A stretch of DNA of 64,000 nt from an uncultured Maricaulis sp. GTDB taxonomy: Bacteria > Pseudomonadota > Alphaproteobacteria > Caulobacterales > Maricaulaceae. The position numbers were made by a program, and so were the translations under genes. Shown here piece after piece: positions 43,200 to 53,710 of this stretch. The stretch spans positions 1 to 64,000 of the forward strand of contig NZ_CAMYLS010000028.1 in the NCBI RefSeq assembly GCF_947259345.1, in the 5' to 3' direction. Position 1 is the first letter of the stretch. Each line of letters begins with the position of its first letter. Under the pieces are notes generated by a model. It worked only from the letters and a program-made list of their open reading frames with translations, did no database searches and was not told the origin of the DNA.

Positions 43200-43730
43200 A
43201 TGGCTTGGACTGACGAACGCGTAGAAGAACTCAAGAAACTCTGGTCGGAAGGCCTGAGCGCGAGTCAGATTGCAAAACAGCTCGGTGGTGTGACTCGCAA
43301 TGCCGTTATTGGCAAGGTCCACCGCCTGGGTTTGTCAGGTCGCGCGACCCCGTCGCGTCCGGCCCGTCGCACGGCCAAACCTTCCCGTCCGCGCCCAACA
43401 ACGGCGTCCACCGCCCCGGCCCGCACTGTTGCGCGCCCTTCCCCCTCAGCGCCTCCGGCTGCCGCGCCGGCGCCGGTGGAGCCAGCCGTCCTGCCTTCCG
43501 GTGAGTTTGCCACCGTGCTGACGCTCCGCGAAAGCATGTGCAAATGGCCAATCGGTGATCCGGCCCAGTCGGAATTCCGCTTCTGCGGCCGCAAGACCGA
43601 CACCGGTCAGGCCTATTGCAACGCCCACTCTGACCTGGCCTACCAGCCGAGCCAGAAGCGTCGTCGTCGCAATTCCGACGCCTCGGCCGCCCTCGACGCG
43701 ATTGCTGCCACGCGTCGCTATAATTTCTGA
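43200..43730 (+). CDS. gcrA: GcrA cell cycle regulator
   Basis: 176 aa, like the 173 aa of Caulobacter GcrA. The DNA-binding N-terminus MAWTDERVEELKKLWSEGLS with ASQIAKQLGGVTRNAVIGKV and the basic loop HRLGLSGRA is intact; a Pro/Ala/Arg-rich linker (48-100) is followed by the conserved sigma-70-contacting C-terminal region SMCKWPIGDP, RFCGRKTDTGQAYCNAHS. GcrA works with sigma-70 at methylated GANTC promoters to drive S-phase genes. A terminator follows the gene. Confidence 0.96.
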   Translation: MAWTDERVEELKKLWSEGLSASQIAKQLGGVTRNAVIGKVHRLGLSGRATPSRPARRTAKPSRPRPTTASTAPARTVARPSPSAPPAAAPAPVEPAVLPSGEFATVLTLRESMCKWPIGDPAQSEFRFCGRKTDTGQAYCNAHSDLAYQPSQKRRRRNSDASAALDAIAATRRYNF

Positions 43731-43795: not shown

Positions 43796-43953
43796 GCGCC
43801 AACGCGTATCGCGGACATCGTCTCACGCCGGACGAAATCGAATTCCCGACAGCCTCTTAAAGGCTTACGCAAATACTCAAAACTGTCAGACCGCAAAACT
43901 TGGAATGACCTCAAGTTTGCGCATAATAGATGCGAACTGCTGAGGAGGTCATT

Positions 43954-44577
43954 GTGAAAGCCAAGTCTGAGAACAGCACGCTGAATAGAATCTACAACTT
44001 GACCGGAAATCCCGAAGAGTGCGTGGAAGCTTACAAGGAGTGGGCCGACAACTACGAGAAGGATACCGTCGACGAAATGGGCTATGTCGCGCCTGCCATC
44101 GTAGCCGAAAAGCTTGCCAGTCTGGCCCGGCTCGATGGCAAGACGGTCCTGGATGCCGGTTGTGGCACCGGCCTGGCCGGGGTCGAGCTGGCCGAACGCG
44201 CAAGCGCCTTGATCGACGGCATGGACATTTCCCCCGACATGCTGGCCCTGGCTCGCAAGAAGGGCGCCTATGAGGATTTGCGCACGGCCGACATGACCGG
44301 ACCGCTGGACTACAAGACCGATCAGTATGACGCGGTCATGTGCGTCGGCACATTCACCCACGCCCATGTCGGCCCGAAGGGTTTTGATGAACTTGTCCGC
44401 ATCACCCGTCCCGGCGGGCTTGTGGTCGCGACGGTGCACGAAGATGTCTGGGACGCCGACAACTATCTCGACCACCTCAAGGCCATCGACGCGTCCGGCG
44501 CAGCGGCCTTGAAGGAATATGACGTGGCACCCTATCACCTGCACGAATGTCGGCTCGTGATCCTGGAAGCACGTTAG
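43954..44577 (+). CDS. Class I SAM-dependent methyltransferase
   Basis: 207 aa. Motif I is VLDAGCGTGLAGVELA, the acidic end of strand 2 is IDGMDISPDML, and the post-motif region YDAVMCVGTFTHAHVG and RITRPGGLVVATVHEDVW complete the Rossmann fold. The Williams-Beuren-type layout suggests a small-molecule or protein acceptor, unknown. The GTG at 43954 is preceded by GAGGAGG at five bases, which decides the start over the ATG at 43930. Confidence 0.85.
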   Translation: MKAKSENSTLNRIYNLTGNPEECVEAYKEWADNYEKDTVDEMGYVAPAIVAEKLASLARLDGKTVLDAGCGTGLAGVELAERASALIDGMDISPDMLALARKKGAYEDLRTADMTGPLDYKTDQYDAVMCVGTFTHAHVGPKGFDELVRITRPGGLVVATVHEDVWDADNYLDHLKAIDASGAAALKEYDVAPYHLHECRLVILEAR

Positions 44578-44624: not shown

Positions 44625-44657
44625 AGGTATTCCATAGCTAACGCCTATGGAATACCT
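44625..44657. promoter_or_regulatory. Large perfect inverted repeat upstream of the carbonic anhydrase gene
   Basis: Arms of 13 bp (AGGTATTCCATAG and its exact complement) flank a 7-bp centre. A third half-site GGTATTC follows at 44666-44672, itself in mirror orientation to the second arm. No T-tract follows, so it is not a normal terminator. It sits 70 bp before the coding start and is either an operator or an mRNA leader hairpin. Confidence 0.65.
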
Positions 44658-44727
44658 CAGATACTGGTATTCGAAACTTTCATGCTGCCGCCCCATCTCC
44701 CGGGCATCAAAACTTGGGAGAACACGC

Positions 44728-45468
44728 ATGAAATACCTGTCCGCCGCGACCGGCCTTGCCCTCGCAGTCTCAGTCTCTGCCCTCGCGACTGCCGAGGAGT
44801 GGAGCTATCACGGTGACACCGGACCGGGTTACTGGGGCTCGCTGAGTGAAGACTTCGCCGTCTGCTCGGTCGGCACCCAACAAAGCCCGATCGACCTGGC
44901 CGGAGCTATTTCCGCCAGCGGCGCGGCGCCTGCGCTCATGATGAACTCGATCTCCGATGTCCAGGTCAGCCGCAATGCGCACGGGGTGACCTACAGCGCT
45001 GAGAGCGTGGACGCAGGCCTGACACTCAACGGCATCGACTTCACCCTGCTGCAATTCCATTTCCACGCCCGCTCCGAGCACCATATCAATGGTGAGGACT
45101 TCCCGCTGGAAGTTCATTTCGTGACCGCCTCGGAAGATGGCGCGCTCGCCGTTGTCGGCGTGATGTTCGAGGAGGGTGATGCGCACCCTGATCTCGACGC
45201 GCTTTGGGCGGCCATTCCGGCCGAGAACGAGTCCGGCGAAGGCCCCGACAGCCTGTCGCTCGAGCGCTTCATCCCGGCAGACGAACCGGTCTTCCGCTAT
45301 GAAGGTTCGCTGACCACCCCGCCCTGCTCGGAGATTGTCAGCTGGACCGTCTTCCCGACACCGATCGAAGCCTCGGCCGAGCAAATCCAGGCCTTCACGG
45401 ATCTGGTCGAGGACAATGCCCGCCCGGTTTTGCCGGCGCATCGCCGATACGTCTTGCTGTCGGACTGA
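44728..45468 (+). CDS. Periplasmic alpha-type carbonic anhydrase
   Basis: 246 aa with a signal peptide (cleavage near ATA-EE, residue 22) and the alpha-CA fold: WSYHGDTGPGYWGSL, SPIDL, zinc ligands in QFHFHARSEHH (H111, H113) and LEVHFV (H130), the pair C46 and the Cys of TTPPCSEIV for a disulfide. It interconverts CO2 and bicarbonate in the periplasm. The ATG follows GGGAGAAC. It is convergent with the PII-like/SbtA pair, and this proximity supports a shared role in bicarbonate supply. Confidence 0.94.
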   Translation: MKYLSAATGLALAVSVSALATAEEWSYHGDTGPGYWGSLSEDFAVCSVGTQQSPIDLAGAISASGAAPALMMNSISDVQVSRNAHGVTYSAESVDAGLTLNGIDFTLLQFHFHARSEHHINGEDFPLEVHFVTASEDGALAVVGVMFEEGDAHPDLDALWAAIPAENESGEGPDSLSLERFIPADEPVFRYEGSLTTPPCSEIVSWTVFPTPIEASAEQIQAFTDLVEDNARPVLPAHRRYVLLSD

Positions 45469-45494
45469 TCCGGTCTCACCCGCCCAATGCGACA

Positions 45495-45523
45495 GGGCCC
45501 GACCAAGCGGTCGGGCCCTTTTC
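45495..45523 (+). terminator. Terminator of the carbonic anhydrase gene
   Basis: GGGCCCGACC-AAGC-GGTCGGGCCC is a perfect 10-bp stem followed by TTTTC. The stem could also serve transcripts from the convergent side. Confidence 0.85.
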
Positions 45524-45551
45524 ATTGAGCGCTCTTCAGGTCTTAACCGGC

Positions 45552-45869
45552 TCAGTCGCTTGCCACGCTGCGCCGACGCCAATCGTGCTGACAATACAGA
45601 TCGGCATCATAGGCTTTCAACAGCGGGTCGAGTGTCGCCACCAGACCGTCCAGTGTCTCCGGCGGTAGAAAGCATACCAGCGCCGCCTGGCGGCCCGCAT
45701 CGACAATATGGCCGCTTCGATTCCACTGATTGTCGCCCTGCCGCCCGCGCGCAAGTGGACGAACGGTCCAATGGGTCGCTCCGGCTTCAGCAAGGCAGGT
45801 CTCGAATTTGGGCATGTGAACTTCATCGGCCAGGATTTCAACCCGGCAGATCGCTTGCCAATCCGTCAT
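45552..45869 (-). CDS. PII-like protein, SbtB-type
   Basis: 105 aa with the PII/SbtB-like core: an N-terminal beta strand (AICRVEILADEV), helix PKFETCLAEAGATHWTV, a loop region ARGRQGDNQWNRSG, strand AALVCFLP, helix ETLDGLVATLDPLL and C-terminal LYCQHDWRRR. The AGATxxTV pattern is the clearest match to SbtB and to carboxysome-associated PII proteins. It begins two bases after the SbtA stop, so it is co-transcribed with the transporter and probably binds adenine nucleotides and gates it. Confidence 0.78.
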   Translation of the reverse strand: MTDWQAICRVEILADEVHMPKFETCLAEAGATHWTVRPLARGRQGDNQWNRSGHIVDAGRQAALVCFLPPETLDGLVATLDPLLKAYDADLYCQHDWRRRSVASD

Positions 45870-45871
45870 GA

Positions 45872-46858
45872 TCAGGCCTCCAGCAGGCGGCCGGCCAACC
45901 AGGCATAAACCGGGATGCCGACCAGTAGGTTGAATGGGAAGGTTACGCCGAGTGACAATGTCAGGGACAGGGCGGCCTTTGCTTGGGGAAGGGCGAGGCG
46001 CATGGCGGCGGGTACAGCGATGTAGGACGCCGAGGCGGCTAACGTCATCAGCAAGGCACCATCGCCTGGTGCAAGCCCGATCAACCGGCTGACCCCAAGC
46101 GCAATCGCCGCTCCGATAGCGGGCATGTAAAGCCCGAAACCAATCAGCGGCCAGCGCAGCAGGTCACGATGCTGGACCAGTCCGCGTCCCGCGATCAAAC
46201 CCATATCCAGCAGGAAAAGACAGAGCACCCCGCGGAAGATATCGACGAAGAAAGGCTCGACCGTGGCCATCCCCGCCGGCCCGCTGATCCAGCCGATTGC
46301 GAAGGCACCGAGAAGAAGAAGGATCGACCCATTGGTGAATGCCTCGCGCACCAGAGTCAGCGACACGCCCCCCTCGGCCTTGCCCGGACTGGCCAATGCC
46401 CGCCCGGCGAGCATCAATCCGGTCAGGATGGCAGGGGCTTCCATCGCTGCTGCCACCGCCACCATATAGCCGCCACCCGGCTGATCGAGCGCGGCGCCCG
46501 CATCCTTGGCAGCGATGAATGTCACGATTGAGATCGAGCCGTAATGGGCCGCAATGGCCGCCGCGTCGACCCGATCCACGCCCGTCGTGGCCCGCAGAAG
46601 TCCAAAACCGATCAGCGGCAAGCCGGCAGACAGGATGACGCCAGCGCAGAGCAACAGGATCAGTGAGGACGGATCTGTCACCGCCATTTCCGCACCGCCC
46701 TTGAAGCCGATCGCCATCACCAGGTAGAGCGACAACCCCTTGGCGACCGCCTCGGGTATGGCCAGATCGGAGCGAACAATCGCCGCCAGCAGCCCCAGCA
46801 CGAAAAACAGGACAGCCGGTGAAAACAGGGTCGTCCCGGCCAGACTTAGCCAATCCAT
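45872..46858 (-). CDS. SbtA-type sodium-dependent bicarbonate transporter
   Basis: 328 aa with ten helices in two inverted halves, matching the Sbt_1 family (formerly DUF897): SPAVLFFVLGLLAAIVRSDL, GFKGGAEMA, AAHYGSISIVTFIAA in the first half and TLAASASYIAVPAAMRLALP in the second. Cyanobacterial SbtA is about 370 aa and has a longer cytoplasmic loop between the halves; here the loop is short (ALASPGKAEGG). It imports bicarbonate with Na+. Gene pair SbtA then PII-like is the sbtAB arrangement. Confidence 0.88.
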   Translation of the reverse strand: MDWLSLAGTTLFSPAVLFFVLGLLAAIVRSDLAIPEAVAKGLSLYLVMAIGFKGGAEMAVTDPSSLILLLCAGVILSAGLPLIGFGLLRATTGVDRVDAAAIAAHYGSISIVTFIAAKDAGAALDQPGGGYMVAVAAAMEAPAILTGLMLAGRALASPGKAEGGVSLTLVREAFTNGSILLLLGAFAIGWISGPAGMATVEPFFVDIFRGVLCLFLLDMGLIAGRGLVQHRDLLRWPLIGFGLYMPAIGAAIALGVSRLIGLAPGDGALLMTLAASASYIAVPAAMRLALPQAKAALSLTLSLGVTFPFNLLVGIPVYAWLAGRLLEA

Positions 46859-47070
46859 TGCCTACTCCTTGCGTCGCTTTGCGGGGCTCTCAAAAGGAGG
46901 GGCCCGGCCAGCGGATTGCGGGGACACGCAGAGCTGGCCGGGCCTACCGGTCTTCGGCGGGCCGGTGCGAGGGGGCCCGTATGACGCCGTCGACCGGCCG
47001 TGTTGCGCCAGGATCATGACAGGGGACGATCAGGCAGGACTTGATTAGCGCGACCAAAACGATAGCTAAA

Positions 47071-47107
47071 AGATAAGAAAATTATCTCGGGAATAGGGAT
47101 TGGCTAT
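47071..47107. promoter_or_regulatory. Candidate binding region between sbtA and the LysR gene
   Basis: AGATAA-GAAAA-TTATCT (47071-47087) is a perfect 6-bp inverted repeat in an AT-rich patch. ATAG-N7-CTAT (47093-47107), the OxyR half-operator pattern, ends two bases before the LysR start codon. Both lie in the 251-bp region shared by the divergent genes. Confidence 0.45.
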
Positions 47108-47109
47108 AG

Positions 47110-48036
47110 ATGCGTCCGACACTACGACAGCTGCAATATCTTGTCGCAACAGCCGATACCGGCCGTTTCTCGGACGCCGCCGAACAGCTGCATGTCAGTC
47201 AGCCCAGCCTGTCTGCCCAAATCGCCGAAGCCGAGGCCCATCTCGGTGCGACGGTGTTTGAACGTGGCCGCCACGGCGCAAGGGTGACACCGCTGGGCGC
47301 GGAGATCGTGCGGCGGGCGCGCTATGTCCTGCGGCAAATGGAAGATATGCAATCCATCGCGCGCAGCGGCGGCCTGGGACTTTACGGCCGCGTCCGGATG
47401 GGTGTCCTGCCGACGATCGGCCCCTACCTGCTGCCGCGCGCGACCGGCGCATTGCATCGTGACTTCCCGGACCTGCGACTCTCTATCCGCGAGGAATCCA
47501 CCGTCGAACTCCAGGAAAAGCTGGCCGATGGCCGGATGGACGTCCTGATTTCGACGCCGGAGGACCATGCCCCAACCGAATCCGCCCACCTATTCCGCGA
47601 AAGCCTGTGGATCGCTGTCCCGAGCGATGATCCGCTGGCACAGGACACAGCACCGCTTGACCTGAAGGCCCTGGCCGATCGGCCAATCCTGACCCTCGGA
47701 ATGGGGCATCGCCTGACGAGCCTCGTCTCGGAGCTGGCCCATGCTGCGGGAGGCTTCGTGTCGACCGATTATGAGGGAACCAGTCTCGACGCCATCCGGC
47801 ACATGGCCGCGCTCGGCGCCGGCGTCGCCGTCCTGCCGCAGCTCTATGTCACCTGCGAAGCGCGACGCGATGATGTTCTGGTCTACCGCCGCATCAGCGC
47901 GCCCATGGCCGAGCGGAATATTGCACTGGTTTGGCGGCAAGGGTCGCCGCTACACGACGGGTTCCTGCAACTGGCCGAAGCGCTGCGCCTGGCCGCCAAC
48001 TCTATACTGGAGACGCGCCACGGAAAGACCCGCTGA
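47110..48036 (+). CDS. OxyR-like LysR regulator lacking the redox cysteines
   Basis: 308 aa. N-terminal winged HTH (LRQLQYLVATADTGRFSDAA, LHVSQPSLSAQIAEAEAHLG) and a substrate-binding domain that follows OxyR closely (SIREESTVELQEKLADGRMD, SLDAIRHMAALGAGVAVLPQL). Where OxyR has GHC199, this protein has GHR (R201), and the C208 position is Ala; the only Cys is at 249. It therefore cannot form the OxyR disulfide. It is divergent from sbtA-sbtB and is the likely local regulator. Confidence 0.85.
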   Translation: MRPTLRQLQYLVATADTGRFSDAAEQLHVSQPSLSAQIAEAEAHLGATVFERGRHGARVTPLGAEIVRRARYVLRQMEDMQSIARSGGLGLYGRVRMGVLPTIGPYLLPRATGALHRDFPDLRLSIREESTVELQEKLADGRMDVLISTPEDHAPTESAHLFRESLWIAVPSDDPLAQDTAPLDLKALADRPILTLGMGHRLTSLVSELAHAAGGFVSTDYEGTSLDAIRHMAALGAGVAVLPQLYVTCEARRDDVLVYRRISAPMAERNIALVWRQGSPLHDGFLQLAEALRLAANSILETRHGKTR

Positions 48037-48039
48037 TCC

Positions 48040-48729
48040 TCAGGCATTCACGTCGAAGGCGTAGCCGGCGGAGCGCACCGTGCGGATCGGATCGCGCTCT
48101 TCCTTGTTGTTCAGCGCCTTGCGCAGGCGGCCGACATGCACATCGACCGTGCGCGCCTCGACATAGACATCCGAGCCCCAGACGGCGTCGAGCAATTGCT
48201 CGCGCGAGAAGACCCGTCCGGGATGCTGCATGAGATAGTCGAGCAGGCGGAATTCGGTCGGGCCGAGATGGATTTCCCGGTCCGCGCGGCGGACCCGATG
48301 GGCGACCCGGTCCATGGTGATGTCGCCGGCCTCGATCACATCCTCGGCCAGACCCGGGCGGATACGGCGCAGAACGGCGCGAATTCGTGCGAAGAGCTCG
48401 GTCATCGAAAAGGGTTTGACGACATAGTCATCGGCGCCGGTATCCAGCCCGCGCACCCGATCGGTTTCCTCACCGCGCGCCGTCAGCATGATGATCGGCA
48501 CATTGGCAGTTTCCTGCCGTCCGCGCAGGCGGCGGCAGACCTCGATGCCCGACACTTTCGGCAGCATCCAGTCGACCAGGACGAGATCCGGCGTCGATTC
48601 CTCAGCCTGGATCAGCGCCTCTTCGCCATCGCGGGCGACCGCAACCGTATAGCCCTCTTTCTCCAGATTGTACTGAAGCAGGGTGGCCAGCGCATCTTCA
48701 TCTTCAACGACAAGGACTTGGGGATTCAT
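48040..48729 (-). CDS. phoB: Phosphate regulon response regulator PhoB
   Basis: 229 aa OmpR-family regulator. Receiver: VVEDEDA, phospho-acceptor D53 in LVDWMLPK, and Lys in VVKPFS; DNA-binding domain with HLGPTEFRLLDYLMQHPGRVFSREQLLDAVWG and TVDVHVGRLRKAL (cited in pieces: GPTEFRLLDYLMQHPGRVFS and TVDVHVGRLRKAL). It activates phosphate-starvation genes. It is the last gene of the pst operon, 33 bp after phoU. The downstream LysR gene is convergent. Confidence 0.95.
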   Translation of the reverse strand: MNPQVLVVEDEDALATLLQYNLEKEGYTVAVARDGEEALIQAEESTPDLVLVDWMLPKVSGIEVCRRLRGRQETANVPIIMLTARGEETDRVRGLDTGADDYVVKPFSMTELFARIRAVLRRIRPGLAEDVIEAGDITMDRVAHRVRRADREIHLGPTEFRLLDYLMQHPGRVFSREQLLDAVWGSDVYVEARTVDVHVGRLRKALNNKEERDPIRTVRSAGYAFDVNA

Positions 48730-48762
48730 CGATCGGCTCCGGGCTATCGATCAGCAACAACG

Positions 48763-49446
48763 TCAGTGCGAGGTGTCTTCCACCAATGGTGACGCTGTCA
48801 CCATGAAATGGACGGCTTCCGCGATATTGGTGGCGTGATCGCCAATGCGTTCGAGATTCTTGGCGACGAAGAGGATGTGGACGCCCGGTCCGACCAGGCC
48901 GGAATCCTCGGTCATCGACATCAGCATTTCCCGGACCAGCGTATTGTAGCGCTCATCCACCTCGTCGTCGGAATGCCAGACCCGCACAGCCGGCTCGACA
49001 TCAGCCGAGGACAAGGCGTCCAGCACTTCACGCAATTGCTTGATGACAATCGCGCCCAGACGCTCGACCTGCTGGGTCAGCGAAACCGGCGCATAGCCGG
49101 CCAGGTCGCCGGCGCGATAGGCGATATTCTTGGCCAGATCACCAACACGCTCGAGGTCGGTGGCGATCTTGAGCGCAGATATGGTCATGCGCAGATCCGT
49201 GGCGAGCGGCTGGCGCAAGGCGAAAAGGCGCAGGACGCGTTTTTCGATATCGACCTGCAGCGCATTGACCTGCGCCTCACGCGCCTTGATGTCGGGCTTT
49301 ACACTCGCATCGCGCCGGACGACGGCAGAGATAGCCTTCTCCAGCTGCGTCTCGACGAGCCCGCCCATCCGGGCCAGGTCGTCGGCAAGCTGATCGAGTT
49401 CCTCGCCATAAGCGGTGACGATGTGGGCAGTTCTGGAAAGCGCCAT
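48763..49446 (-). CDS. phoU: Phosphate signalling protein PhoU
   Basis: 227 aa with two PhoU three-helix domains: LDQLADDLARMGGLVETQLE and RMTISALKIATDLERVGDLA in the first, and HILFVAKNLERIGDHATNIAE in the second, with the metal-binding ERVGD and ERIGDH motifs. PhoU couples the Pst transporter to PhoR to inhibit the kinase when phosphate is sufficient. 32 bp after pstB. Confidence 0.95.
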   Translation of the reverse strand: MALSRTAHIVTAYGEELDQLADDLARMGGLVETQLEKAISAVVRRDASVKPDIKAREAQVNALQVDIEKRVLRLFALRQPLATDLRMTISALKIATDLERVGDLAKNIAYRAGDLAGYAPVSLTQQVERLGAIVIKQLREVLDALSSADVEPAVRVWHSDDEVDERYNTLVREMLMSMTEDSGLVGPGVHILFVAKNLERIGDHATNIAEAVHFMVTASPLVEDTSH

Positions 49447-49478
49447 TGACTGGCCCTCCTCTCGATGAACGCCGCGGT

Positions 49479-50270
49479 CTAGCCGAAGCGTCCGGTGATG
49501 TAGTCTTGCGTGCGGGTGTCGCGCGGATTGGTGAAAATGTCCTCGGTCGGCCCGTATTCGACGAGGTTGCCCATGTGGAAGAAGGCGGTTTGCTGGGAAA
49601 CCCGCGCCGCCTGCTGCATCGAGTGGGTGACAATGATGATGCAGTAATTTTCGCGCAGCTCGTCAATCAATTCCTCGATCCGTGCCGTGGCGATCGGATC
49701 GAGGGCGGAGCAGGGCTCATCCATCAGGATGACTTCCGGATTGACCGCAATGGCACGGGCGATGACCAGGCGCTGCTGCTGCCCGCCCGACAGGCTGGTC
49801 CCGGGATGATTGAGCCGGTCCGACACTTCCTCCCAGAGCCCGGCCTTGCGCAGGGCGTTCTCGACGATCTCGTCAAGTTCCGGACGGGTCAGGGCAAGGC
49901 CGTGAATGCGCGGTCCATAGGCGACATTGTCATAGATCGATTTGGGGAAGGGATTCGGCTTCTGGAAGACCATGCCGACACTGGCCCGCAACACGACCGG
50001 GTCGATCGACTTGTCGTTGATCTCCTGCCCGTCAATCGTCAGCGAGCCGCCGACCTTGGCGCCATCAATCGTGTCATTCATGCGATTGAGGCAGCGCAGG
50101 AAGGTCGACTTGCCACAGCCTGACGGACCGATGAAGGCCGTGACCGAACGATCCGGAATCTCGATCGAGACATCATGCAGCGCCTGCTTGCCGGAATAGC
50201 TCACGGTCACGTCGCGTGCGACGACCTTGATCGGCAGCTCAGCGGCTGGATTGGGGGAGGTATCAGTCAT
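49479..50270 (-). CDS. pstB: Phosphate ABC transporter ATP-binding protein PstB
   Basis: 263 aa. Walker A is GPSGCGKST (48-56), Q-loop [16 protein letters not shown], signature [14 protein letters not shown], Walker [15 protein letters not shown]-loop VTHSMQQA. The MTD start at 50270 is right after the pstA stop (4 bp), whereas the frame extension to 50321 lies within pstA. Confidence 0.96.
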
Positions 50271-50274
50271 GAAA

Positions 50275-52017
50275 CTACCATCTCCGCTCGAAGCGACGGC
50301 GCAGATAGATGGCCAAGGCATTGAAGCCGATCATCAGCGCGAGAAGAACAAGGATTGCGGCGGCGGTGCGAGCCTCGAAGGCCCGTTCGGCACCGTCCGA
50401 CCACAGGAAAATCTGCACCGGCATGACCGTTGCCGGTTCGGTAAAGCCTTCCAGCCCGAGCGTCGGCGCGTCGGCGATGAAGGCGACCATGCCGATCATC
50501 AGCAGCGGCGCCGTCTCGCCCATGGCCTGGGCCAGGCCGATAATGGCACCGGTGAGGATGCCGGGTGCCGCCAGCGGCAAGACATGATGGAAGACGGTCT
50601 GGGTTCGTGAAGCGCCAACGGCCAGGGCCGCCTGGCGGATGGATTGGGGTACCGCCTTGAGCGCGGCACGGGTAGCAATGATCACGGTCGGCAGCGTCAT
50701 CAGGGACAGGACCAGACCACCCACCAGCGGCGCCGATCGCGGCAGGCCGAAGGCATTGATGAAGACAGCCAGTCCGAGCAGACCGAACACGATCGACGGA
50801 ACCGCAGCGAGATTGTTGATATTGACCTCGATCAGCGCGGTGAACCGGTTCTTCGGGGCGTATTCCTCGAGATAGAGCGCGGTGAAGACACCGATCGGCA
50901 CCGAGATGATGATGGTGATGATCATCGTCAGGATGGAGCCGTAAAGCGCGCCCTTCACACCGGCCAGCTCGGGTTCCCGGCTGTCCGCATTGGCAAAGAG
51001 ATAGGTATTGAAGGTCGAGCTGATGGCCCCGCGCTCTTCCAGCGCCCGCGTCCAGACGATCAGCTGATCCGAGACGCGGCGGCGTTCGACCGGCGTATCG
51101 ATGACCTGGATCGACCAGGCGTTCTCGGCTTCGACGCTGTCGCCGCCGAGCAGATATTCCCCGGTCCCGCCGGCCCCGTTGCGGGCCAGGCTGGCAAGCC
51201 GGACCGTGCGACCTTCGCTTTCAACCAGAATGCTGGGCAAACTATTGTCGAGTTCGATCGGTCCGGCGTCGATCTCGAGCCGCGCACGAATGTCCGCTGC
51301 CTGGCGACGATTGAGGTCGGCGTCGTAAAGCATGTCTTCTGCTTCAGTGCCGCTCAACTCCTGCGCCCGTTCGGTCAGACGATCAGCCTCCGTCTCCAGC
51401 AAGGTCGCGCGAGCCCGCAGCGTGCGGGCAATTTCAGCGGCGAGGTCACGAAAGTCTGTCGCCGTGGACCGCACAACAACGCCAGCATCGGACGGCTCAA
51501 GGCTGAGCGTGCCCTGCGGCTGGAAACTGCGCTCCTCGACCAGCAAACCCTTGAGATAGAGGTCAAGGTCATCGGCAAGCGGCATGGTGAAACGGTGTTG
51601 CGTCCCGATCAGGCCCGGATCCTCAAGCACCTCATCCATCAGGCGGGTCGCGTTGAGGGCAGTATAGAGGCTGAACAAATTGCGCAGCTCGCGGCGACCG
51701 GTCACTTCGGGAAATTCGGTGCGGATCGCGTTTTGCAGGACACGGCTATAGCTGCCCCGGCGCAATGAGTCCTCGCTGCGCTCGCCGGACGGATCGACCA
51801 GCTCTTCGTCCAGGTCGACCGTCAATTCCAGCTCGTTGACCGTGAAAGCCGGCAATCCGCCGGAGACAATCGAGCTCAGCAGGATGACCAGGATGCCGAC
51901 GGCTGCGGCGACGGCGGCCAGGCCAGCCGCGCGAAAGCGAAGCTCGGCCCGATAGCGTGCGCCGAGATTCTTGCTGACGGCGGTCCGGATCGGCGAGATG
52001 TCGGGCGTATCAGTCAT
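50275..52017 (-). CDS. pstA: Phosphate ABC transporter permease PstA, long form
   Basis: 580 aa, much longer than E. coli PstA (296 aa). A single N-terminal helix ([18 protein letters not shown]) is followed by about 330 residues of periplasmic sequence, then the permease core with six helices and the EAA-like loop [22 protein letters not shown]. The long N-terminal extension is the known DUF3333-type arrangement of alphaproteobacterial PstA. Start is the Met at 52017, overlapping pstC by eight bases. Confidence 0.93.
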
Positions 52018-53710
52018 ATTTTTCCCGGTATCTTTGCACAACGCGCAGGGCGATGACGTTCATCACCAGGGTGATGACGAAGAGGACCAGGCCCAGCGCG
52101 AAGGCGGACAGGGTCTTGGGACTGTCGAATTCCTGGTCACCGGTCAGCAGCATCACGATCTGGACCGTGATCGTGGTGACCGATTCCAACGGATTGGCGG
52201 TCAGATTTGCGCCCTGTCCGGCCGCCATGACCACAATCATGGTTTCGCCAACAGCGCGTGACACGGCCAGCAGGATGGCACCGACGATGCCGGGCAGCGC
52301 GGCGGGGATGATCACGCGCCCGATCGTCTCCGATTTGGTCGCGCCCATGGCGTAGGAGCCGTCGCGCAGGGATTGCGGCACGGAATTGATCACATCATCG
52401 CTGAGCGAGGAGATGAAGGGGATGATCATCACCCCCATGACCAGGCCGGCCGAAAGCGCGCTCTGGGTCACCACATCGTCGATGCCGATCATGGCGAAGA
52501 AGCCGCGAATGGCGGGCCCGACAGTCAGGAGGGCAAAGAAACCATAGACCACGGTGGGCACACCGGCGAGAATTTCCAGAACCGGCTTGGCGGTCAGCCG
52601 GAAGCGCGGCCCGGCATATTCCGAGAGATAGATGGCCGAGAGCAGACCGATGGGCACAGCCACAATCATCGCGATCACGGTGATCATCGCCGTGCCGGCA
52701 AAAAGCGGCACCGCCCCGAAGGCACCGGACTGGCCGACCTGGTCGGCCCGCAAGGCAATCTGCGGCGACCATTGAAGGCCGAACAGGAATTCGGTCAGCG
52801 GTACGGTCGAGAAGAATCGAAGGCTTTCAAACAGAAGCGAAAACACGATGCCGATCGTCGTCATGATGGCTATGACGGAAGACAGGAAGAGCATGGCCGT
52901 AACCAGGCTCTCGACATGATTGCGGGCCCGGAAGGCTGCGGCGACCTGCCCGCGAGTCCGAATCAATCCGCCAAAGGCGATGGCGATGGCTATGCCGGCG
53001 ACCAGATTGCGAATCTGGTCGGCATGGCGGCGCATGACCGCGGCTGCAGCATCCAGCTCGGGGCTGGCGCGGCTGGCGAGACCATCGGTCGCGATCCGCC
53101 TCGCGTCGGAAAGGAATAGCTGGCGCCGCTCGCGCGGCGCATGCGCGAGCTCGAAGCCCGCCAGGGCGCGAACCGATGCCCCCGCTTCCGCCGCTTCGTC
53201 CGAAACACCATCTCGCAGCTCGGCCCGCCGCCCAAGCCGTGCGTCTTCAGCCGTTGCGAGCTGGTTGACCAGATCGGTCTGTTCACTTTGCAACGCTTCC
53301 AGGCGCGCCGGGTCGCGATCACTGCCGCTTGCGCTGCGCAGATCTGCCATGGCCTCGGCAACGCCGTCAGCCCGATCGCGCAGAACGGCCAGCGTCTCCG
53401 CCAGAGCCAGGGTTTCGGTGTCGGCTTCCAAAGCCGTCTCAAAACTCGCCGTGAGCGCGGCCGCGTCGCGGCGCAACTCCATGGCGGTGAGCCGATCAAC
53501 AAGACCGCTGCCGAACATGCCGTAGGCGGCAAGCAGGATGAAGGCCGGCAGTCCAGTCCAGATCGCGACGTAATAGCCATGGAAATTGGGCAGGGAGTGC
53601 AACCGCGCCGTCGCGCCGGAGACCGCGGAGATCGCCCGCGATCGGCCGACATAGAAGCCGCCGGCCAGCATCACGATGATCGCAAGTGCGACTATGGCGA
53701 TAATGGACAT
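52010..53710 (-). CDS. pstC: Phosphate ABC transporter permease PstC, long form
   Basis: 566 aa, against 319 aa in E. coli. Two N-terminal helices (IIAIVALAIIVMLAGGFYV; a second near residue 50-70) are followed by a periplasmic coiled coil (LEADTETLALAETLAVLRDR, residues 90-150), then the permease core with the EAA loop NSVPQSLRDGSYAMGATKSE. First gene of the pst operon; a three-repeat Pho box lies 88-116 bp upstream. No pstS gene is in this operon. Confidence 0.93.
   Translation of the reverse strand: MSIIAIVALAIIVMLAGGFYVGRSRAISAVSGATARLHSLPNFHGYYVAIWTGLPAFILLAAYGMFGSGLVDRLTAMELRRDAAALTASFETALEADTETLALAETLAVLRDRADGVAEAMADLRSASGSDRDPARLEALQSEQTDLVNQLATAEDARLGRRAELRDGVSDEAAEAGASVRALAGFELAHAPRERRQLFLSDARRIATDGLASRASPELDAAAAVMRRHADQIRNLVAGIAIAIAFGGLIRTRGQVAAAFRARNHVESLVTAMLFLSSVIAIMTTIGIVFSLLFESLRFFSTVPLTEFLFGLQWSPQIALRADQVGQSGAFGAVPLFAGTAMITVIAMIVAVPIGLLSAIYLSEYAGPRFRLTAKPVLEILAGVPTVVYGFFALLTVGPAIRGFFAMIGIDDVVTQSALSAGLVMGVMIIPFISSLSDDVINSVPQSLRDGSYAMGATKSETIGRVIIPAALPGIVGAILLAVSRAVGETMIVVMAAGQGANLTANPLESVTTITVQIVMLLTGDQEFDSPKTLSAFALGLVLFVITLVMNVIALRVVQRYREKYD

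Follow-up and report, generated by a model that had tools for sequence, protein, structure and literature searches.

How do bacteria without CO2 fixation perceive and obtain the bicarbonate that their carboxylases need? Little is known on this point, and the question is raised by a four-gene module at about 44.6-48.0 kb of a 64,000-nucleotide stretch of DNA from an uncultured Maricaulis sp. (RefSeq assembly GCF_947259345.1, contig NZ_CAMYLS010000028.1, positions 1 to 64,000; hereafter the window, meaning the whole stretch). The module encodes an alpha-carbonic anhydrase (CA), a PII-like protein, a transporter of the SbtA superfamily and a divergent LysR-type regulator. It is real, conserved and coherent, its novel part is the regulator clade together with its operator, and we consider that it probably works as a single, locally regulated circuit by which a non-autotroph supplies itself with inorganic carbon. 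The genes and sites on which the argument turns are the following.

44634..44648, no strand assigned: operator core ATAG-N7-CTAT, lying 94 bp upstream of the CA start (pattern match)
44728..45468, plus strand: alpha-carbonic anhydrase, 246 amino acids (aa) (PF00194, E 3e-35; best PDB match 6im0, E 1e-51)
45552..45869, minus strand: SbtB/CPII-like PII protein, 105 aa, directly behind SbtA (family profile and AlphaFold2 (AF2) fold comparison)
45872..46858, minus strand: predicted Na+-dependent bicarbonate transporter of the SbtA superfamily, 328 aa (PF05982, E 4e-103; PDB 7cye, E 1e-14)
47062..47107, plus strand: OxyR-type operator in the gap that separates LysR from SbtA, reading ATAG-N7-ATAA-N16-ATAG-N7-CTAT, 2 bp upstream of the start of LysR (pattern match)
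47110..48036, plus strand: LysR-type regulator of 308 aa, derived from OxyR and lacking its redox cysteines (NCBIfam, PDB, alignment)

Gene identities and gene order

The identities proposed in the initial annotation of this DNA, namely an alpha-CA, an SbtB-like PII protein behind SbtA and a LysR protein, were borne out by profile, PDB and fold matches. The CA carries in its sequence the motifs FHFH, EVHF and LTTPPC, which we take to be the zinc ligands and active site, and by eye its N-terminus resembles a signal peptide. The transporter matched PF05982 with 345.5 bits against a cut-off of 27, over positions 1-307 of 308, which places it in the SbtA superfamily to which it had been assigned. 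Taken alone, the PII-like sequence reached 17.5 bits against the Pfam P-II cut-off of 25, and a search of PDB with it matched no chain. A profile of 54 relatives matched CPII (3e-17), the SbtB of Cyanobium (7e-14) and Slr1513 (1.5e-10), and the AF2 model (pLDDT 88.5) had CPII as its nearest fold, followed by SbtB. The protein thus combines a PII fold with a gene directly behind SbtA, the two marks of an SbtB/CPII-like protein, and the unrelated fold that the annotation had considered as an objection was not what the model comparison returned.

The CA gene and the sbtA-PII pair are convergent, and the LysR gene is divergent from SbtA. The divergent arrangement of LysR and SbtA-SbtB was found at seven Maricaulis loci (the window, L135, L152, L154, L156, L166 and L168), six of which also carry an alpha-CA, L166 being without a CA. 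A PF00016 search of the whole window genome, of which carboxysome genes were not part, gave no match to Rubisco, so that the absence of Rubisco first remarked for the window holds genome-wide.

The regulator clade and its partners

In NCBIfam the best match of the window LysR was OxyR, with 203.8 bits, below the cut-off of 329 for that model, and in PDB the protein matched OxyR 4x6g (E 2e-49). The OxyR redox cysteine pair is missing in all 68 clade members aligned, whereas the other OxyR of the window genome keeps both cysteines. The alignment therefore agrees with the earlier description of an altered OxyR paralog, the gene itself (47110-48036) lying just beyond the interval that had been annotated, and the regulator is, to judge from its sequence, a descendant of OxyR that lost the peroxide-sensing cysteines.

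With E <= 1e-65 to the window LysR as the limit of the clade, 65 copies were counted, in 55 of the 220 genomes that represent the order. For 38 of the 65, a CA or SbtA lies within about 5 kb, the breakdown being CA without SbtA (17), CA and SbtA together (5), SbtA with NhaA (12) and SbtA alone (4); the flanks of some loci end at contig edges. Where a genome has no SbtA, the LysR gene can stand divergent from a beta-CA (e.g. G097, G128, G080, G101, G037 and G041), and in G010 it adjoins an alpha-CA. The best 80 LysR matches in a second genome set, which overlaps the first, had as partners SbtA (31), SbtA with NhaA (7), CA with SbtA (2), CA (9), NhaA (16) or none of these (15), and the clade reaches into the Rhodobacteraceae, where 32 mostly Rhodobacteraceae members comprised 28 with SbtA and 4 with NhaA. 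Mapped on a quick tree of 128 LysR sequences (69 and 80 rows minus L381 and duplicates), whose long branches make single placements unsure, the partner label needs no fewer than 33 changes, compared with 78 when shuffled.

SbtA neighbourhoods

SbtA is present in 81 of the 220 genomes, and 98 of its neighbourhoods were examined, leaving out the window's own, the second copies G078:C122, G108:C167 and G180:C227, and short fragments. A CA lies within about 4 kb at 27 of these loci (22 beta, 5 alpha), where less than one would be expected by chance given one to two beta-CA genes per ~3.3 Mb. An SbtB-like gene is found at 67 of them and the window-type LysR at 17; other LysR genes beside SbtA (24 loci, 25-280 bits) were not counted as clade members. 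Since some of the loci come from close relatives, they are not independent, and the fact that the class of CA varies by lineage, alpha in Maricaulis and beta elsewhere, argues for a function beyond common descent. The annotation had made much depend on whether SbtA homologs adjoin the CA and the LysR gene in relatives; they do, the LysR being of the same clade. The regulator clade and SbtA are, in short, recurrently linked to CAs and to Na+/H+ antiporters.

Two further arrangements involve antiporters. At six loci (L086, L087, L090, L096, L099 and L171) SbtA and the SbtB-like gene are followed, on the same strand, by genes of an Mrp-type antiporter (MnhE, MnhG), which would couple bicarbonate import to Na+ export. 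At six others, from Maricaulis and one relative (L136, L147, L164, L167, L169 and L170), NhaA and a DUF533-like gene, both named by eye, come before SbtA; five of these have no SbtB-like match, and L170 has one.

Operator sites

The site at 47062-47107 is the sole exact match to the operator pattern in the window genome, and a second match, with one mismatch, precedes the other OxyR. When the region before the LysR start was scored on the 12 core bases of the general pattern ATAG-N7-NNNN-N16-ATAG-N7-CTAT, 42 of 69 upstream regions, which include that of the canonical OxyR, reached 11-12 of 12 with the N16 spacing, against an average of 0.04 in 50 shuffles; alternative spacings also score, N7 in 23/69 and N5 in 15/69. 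With a stricter pattern, allowing at most one mismatch, 66 of the 220 genomes yielded 90 matches, compared to 8 for a reversed-pattern control, and 36 of the 90 directly precede a clade LysR.

On the other side of the module, the core before the CA sits inside a perfect 13-nucleotide inverted repeat (44625-44637/44645-44657), for which a hairpin is also possible. The same core stands 91-94 bp before the start of 7/7 regulator-linked alpha-CAs and of 0/9 other alpha-CAs tested (some starts were extrapolated from alignments, and L053 and L054 are not among the nine), and its eight fixed bases are invariant in the seven linked genes, with mostly variable columns on either side. Separate cores precede SbtA in L091, L092 and L103. 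In their architecture these sites correspond to OxyR boxes; the motif gains support from this, and cross-talk with OxyR becomes conceivable at the same time. The regulator would bind DNA at these predicted operators, and its regulon looks local rather than global.

Three observations stand beside these. Among 17 other sites inspected, 11 (L386-L393, L395, L397 and L398) lie beside genes without a seed match and are possibly further targets or chance matches. Five LysR copies (L225, L259, L263, L264 and L268), in the beta-CA-less genomes G057, G209, G111, G093 and G084, have an operator with 10-12 of 12 core bases and no CA, SbtA or NhaA within 5 kb. An operator test of NhaA promoters (0/41) was set aside, since its seed was an NhaA fragment and the assumed start was not that of the gene.

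The transporter and its PII-like protein

The bicarbonate contacts modelled in Slr1512 are Ser114, Tyr140, Ser324 and Ser327 (PMC8352866). In the register given by alignment to the Slr1512 structure (PDB 7cye), the window SbtA has Ser, Ala, Ser and Ala at these positions, i.e. the equivalents of Tyr140 and Ser327 are Ala and those of Gly111, Ser114, Ser322 and Ser324 are retained. It is thus a member of the SbtA superfamily without the full four-contact pocket modelled for Slr1512, and since two of the four contacts are replaced, its substrate rests mostly on context, from which bicarbonate is the probable one. Ninety-eight SbtAs were aligned, the window included and open reading frames below 280 aa dropped. 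Six of them (L158-L163) form a second, cyanobacteria-like clade with all four contacts; a few genomes of the order have a member of it, and some of these genomes have a main-clade SbtA as well.

The C-terminal CGPxGC (R-loop) is absent from the window PII-like protein and from all 65 SbtB-like sequences compared; such an end is found in only some SbtB homologs (PMC8352866). Most of the SbtB-like relatives have instead, at this end, a V-x-V-x-R strand with F as the last residue. This end is altered in the seven Maricaulis PII-like proteins and in L170, the window protein retaining an Arg at the near-invariant Arg column. Given the altered end, nucleotide binding of the Maricaulis proteins may differ from that of their relatives.

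The proposed circuit and its rivals

In the circuit that we propose, the regulator would bind the OxyR-type operator between itself and SbtA, plus the matching core before the alpha-CA, and a shortage of CO2 or bicarbonate (low CO2, high pH) would lead it to switch on both CA and SbtA. The CA would convert CO2 to bicarbonate outside the membrane, SbtA would import the bicarbonate together with Na+, and the PII-like protein would sit on SbtA and close it according to supply or energy status. The imported bicarbonate would feed carboxylases. Export of the CA, the signal of the regulator, the contact between PII and SbtA and the use by carboxylases are steps that we infer; the bicarbonate supply of a non-autotroph, which the annotation had suggested, is supported by the findings as a whole.

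Several observations weigh against this circuit. The window genome also has a beta-CA. Of the 65 regulator copies, 14 have none of CA, SbtA and NhaA nearby, and 13 have NhaA alone. SbtA genes without an adjacent LysR mostly have no operator core, one lying within 350 bp in just 8 of 115 SbtA starts (some loci overlap), and the site before LysR is degenerate, with 8-9 of 12 core bases, in the Maricaulis subgroup L152, L154, L156 and L168. In several members from Rhodobacteraceae a Cys stands one residue off the position of the second OxyR cysteine, and at the first position none was seen in the Rhodobacteraceae stretches compared, which do not cover L381. Finally, all 92 main-clade SbtAs are without Tyr140 and Ser327, and operators of this type are also found upstream of OxyR and catalase-like genes, so that the module may be under OxyR as well.

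The main rival is alkaline-pH and Na+ homeostasis. NhaR, a LysR protein of E. coli, senses Na+ or pH, and it could be that the regulator does the same and that NhaA, CA and bicarbonate import mainly hold the cytoplasmic pH. The 13 copies with NhaA as sole listed partner, joined by the 12 with NhaA and SbtA, fit such a role, as do the NhaA (16) or Mrp genes (6) within about 4 kb of 22 of the 98 SbtA loci. However, the Maricaulis four-gene loci have no NhaA or Mrp seed match within ~4-5 kb of SbtA, and CA alone pairs with 17 of the 65 regulator copies. On balance we find this explanation unlikely.

The operator invites another reading, in which canonical OxyR and peroxide govern the genes and the paralog without the cysteines acts at OxyR boxes as an accessory factor or an antagonist. 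The architecture is common to sites before peroxide-related genes: two of the 17 sites mentioned above precede OxyR genes with an ahpC-like neighbour (L399 and L400), and four precede catalase-peroxidase-like genes (L385, L394, L396 and L401; ahpC and katG named by eye). The window genome, moreover, has a second OxyR with its cysteine pair intact. Yet the genes to which the clade is linked are CA, SbtA and NhaA, and the left half-site before the regulator is mostly unlike that before OxyR, with a catalase-like site in G088 as an exception, which makes control by OxyR quite improbable. It is likewise hard to credit that main-clade SbtA carries another small anion, with an indirect CA linkage, even with Tyr140 and Ser327 replaced in 92/92 main-clade and kept in 6/6 cyanobacteria-like proteins and with Ala at either site reducing Slr1512 transport to ~10-40% each (PMC8352866), when a CA lies near 27/98 SbtA loci, SbtA is enriched where beta-CA is missing (below) and the equivalents of Gly111, Ser114, Ser322 and Ser324 are invariant in 98/98.

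SbtA where carbonic anhydrase is missing

The inorganic-carbon supply circuit leads to a further question, whether SbtA may stand in for CA. A beta-CA is missing in 19 of the 220 genomes; SbtA occurs in 13 of these 19 and in 68 of the other 201 (Fisher p 0.005; stratified by genus, p 0.018), and in a set of 61 genomes it occurs in 7/8 beta-CA-less genomes versus 20/53 others (p 0.017). Of the 13 genomes with SbtA and without beta-CA, 12 are also missing an alpha-CA, and the six genomes with neither beta-CA nor SbtA divide into three with an alpha-CA and three with neither class. SbtA is known to be capable of this in E. coli, where six cyanobacterial proteins allowed a CA-deficient strain to grow in air again (PMC4275256). 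A point against replacement is G005, counted as SbtA-positive, whose SbtA (L164) is split in two and which gave no match to an alpha- or beta-CA; the split could be a true break, an assembly error, or a sign of another supply route. As an alternative source, gamma-CA was considered with the PaaY model TIGR02287, which matched 22/22 searched genomes and 14/14 controls, never over its cut-off, and so does not discriminate.

Because the window genome keeps its beta-CA, replacement is a lead for other lineages and not for the window, namely on how some relatives may manage without a beta-CA. More broadly, one may picture an OxyR duplicate that lost the peroxide sensor, kept the OxyR operator and gained a ligand linked to inorganic carbon, so as to govern whichever alpha-CA, beta-CA or SbtA its lineage has, plus NhaA for the Na+ gradient, with SbtA taking over the cytosolic CA job in some lineages. 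We offer this history tentatively, as a serious possibility rather than as the expected course of events.

Neighbouring features

One further site lies within the module, between the convergent CA and PII-like genes.

45494..45519, no strand assigned: terminator-like hairpin with an 11-pair stem (the scan gave 2 such sites versus 2.5 in shuffles, a number not above chance)

The module is flanked on one side by a gcrA-like gene (43200-43730; named by eye) and a methyltransferase gene (43930-44577; library match), and on the other by phoB-phoU-pst-like genes (48040-52041; pho and pst named by eye).

Comparison with known systems

The annotation had called the combination unusual enough to be a distinct system. 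As far as SbtA-SbtB is concerned this does not stand, the pair not being rare by the genome and locus counts given above, and Sbt uptake for anaplerosis being already proposed in print: PMC10008586 suggests it for other heterotrophic Alphaproteobacteria, PMC10030771 discusses it, and the review PMC10880623 describes inorganic-carbon toolkit genes in autotrophs and heterotrophs alike. What is distinctive is the regulator clade with its operator. No description of an OxyR-derived, cysteine-less regulator of CA or SbtA in heterotrophs was recognised among the literature matches listed, judged by title and opening of the abstract, with subscription papers mostly outside. The word 'transporter' does not occur in the main text of PMC3364446 (2012), on CA-lacking Proteobacteria, or of PMC13098186, a CA survey of 2026. 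The regulator clade, the conserved operator and the recurring neighbours occur in Maricaulis, Hyphomonas, Henriciella, Shimia, Ruegeria and Limimaricola, genera with named strains, which makes the question directly testable.

With cyanobacterial SbtA-SbtB (Slr1512-Slr1513) the module shares a transporter of the SbtA superfamily with a PII-like gene directly behind it; it differs in the two replaced bicarbonate contacts, in the lack of CGPxGC among the SbtB-like proteins compared and in a genome without a Rubisco match. CPII of Thiomonas intermedia, which PDB titles list with ADP, AMP and bicarbonate, is both the best PDB profile match of the SbtB-like family and the best fold match, whereas identity in the top fold matches is 16-18% and the C-terminal end of the window protein is altered. 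For some relatives only, SbtA may work like MpsAB, a substitute for CA (PMC6689103, PMC8552792), in that it would be a bicarbonate importer enriched where CA is missing; SbtA is, however, a different kind of transporter, and the window genome keeps beta-CA. As for the regulator, LysR control of cyanobacterial inorganic-carbon uptake is already known, and the CcmR-type proteins, which control inorganic-carbon acquisition (PMC3401165), are those that it would most resemble in its working, although the window regulator is OxyR-derived. Its closest characterised family is OxyR, whose operator architecture it shares and from which it is set apart by the loss of the cysteine pair and by a score below the cut-off of the OxyR model.

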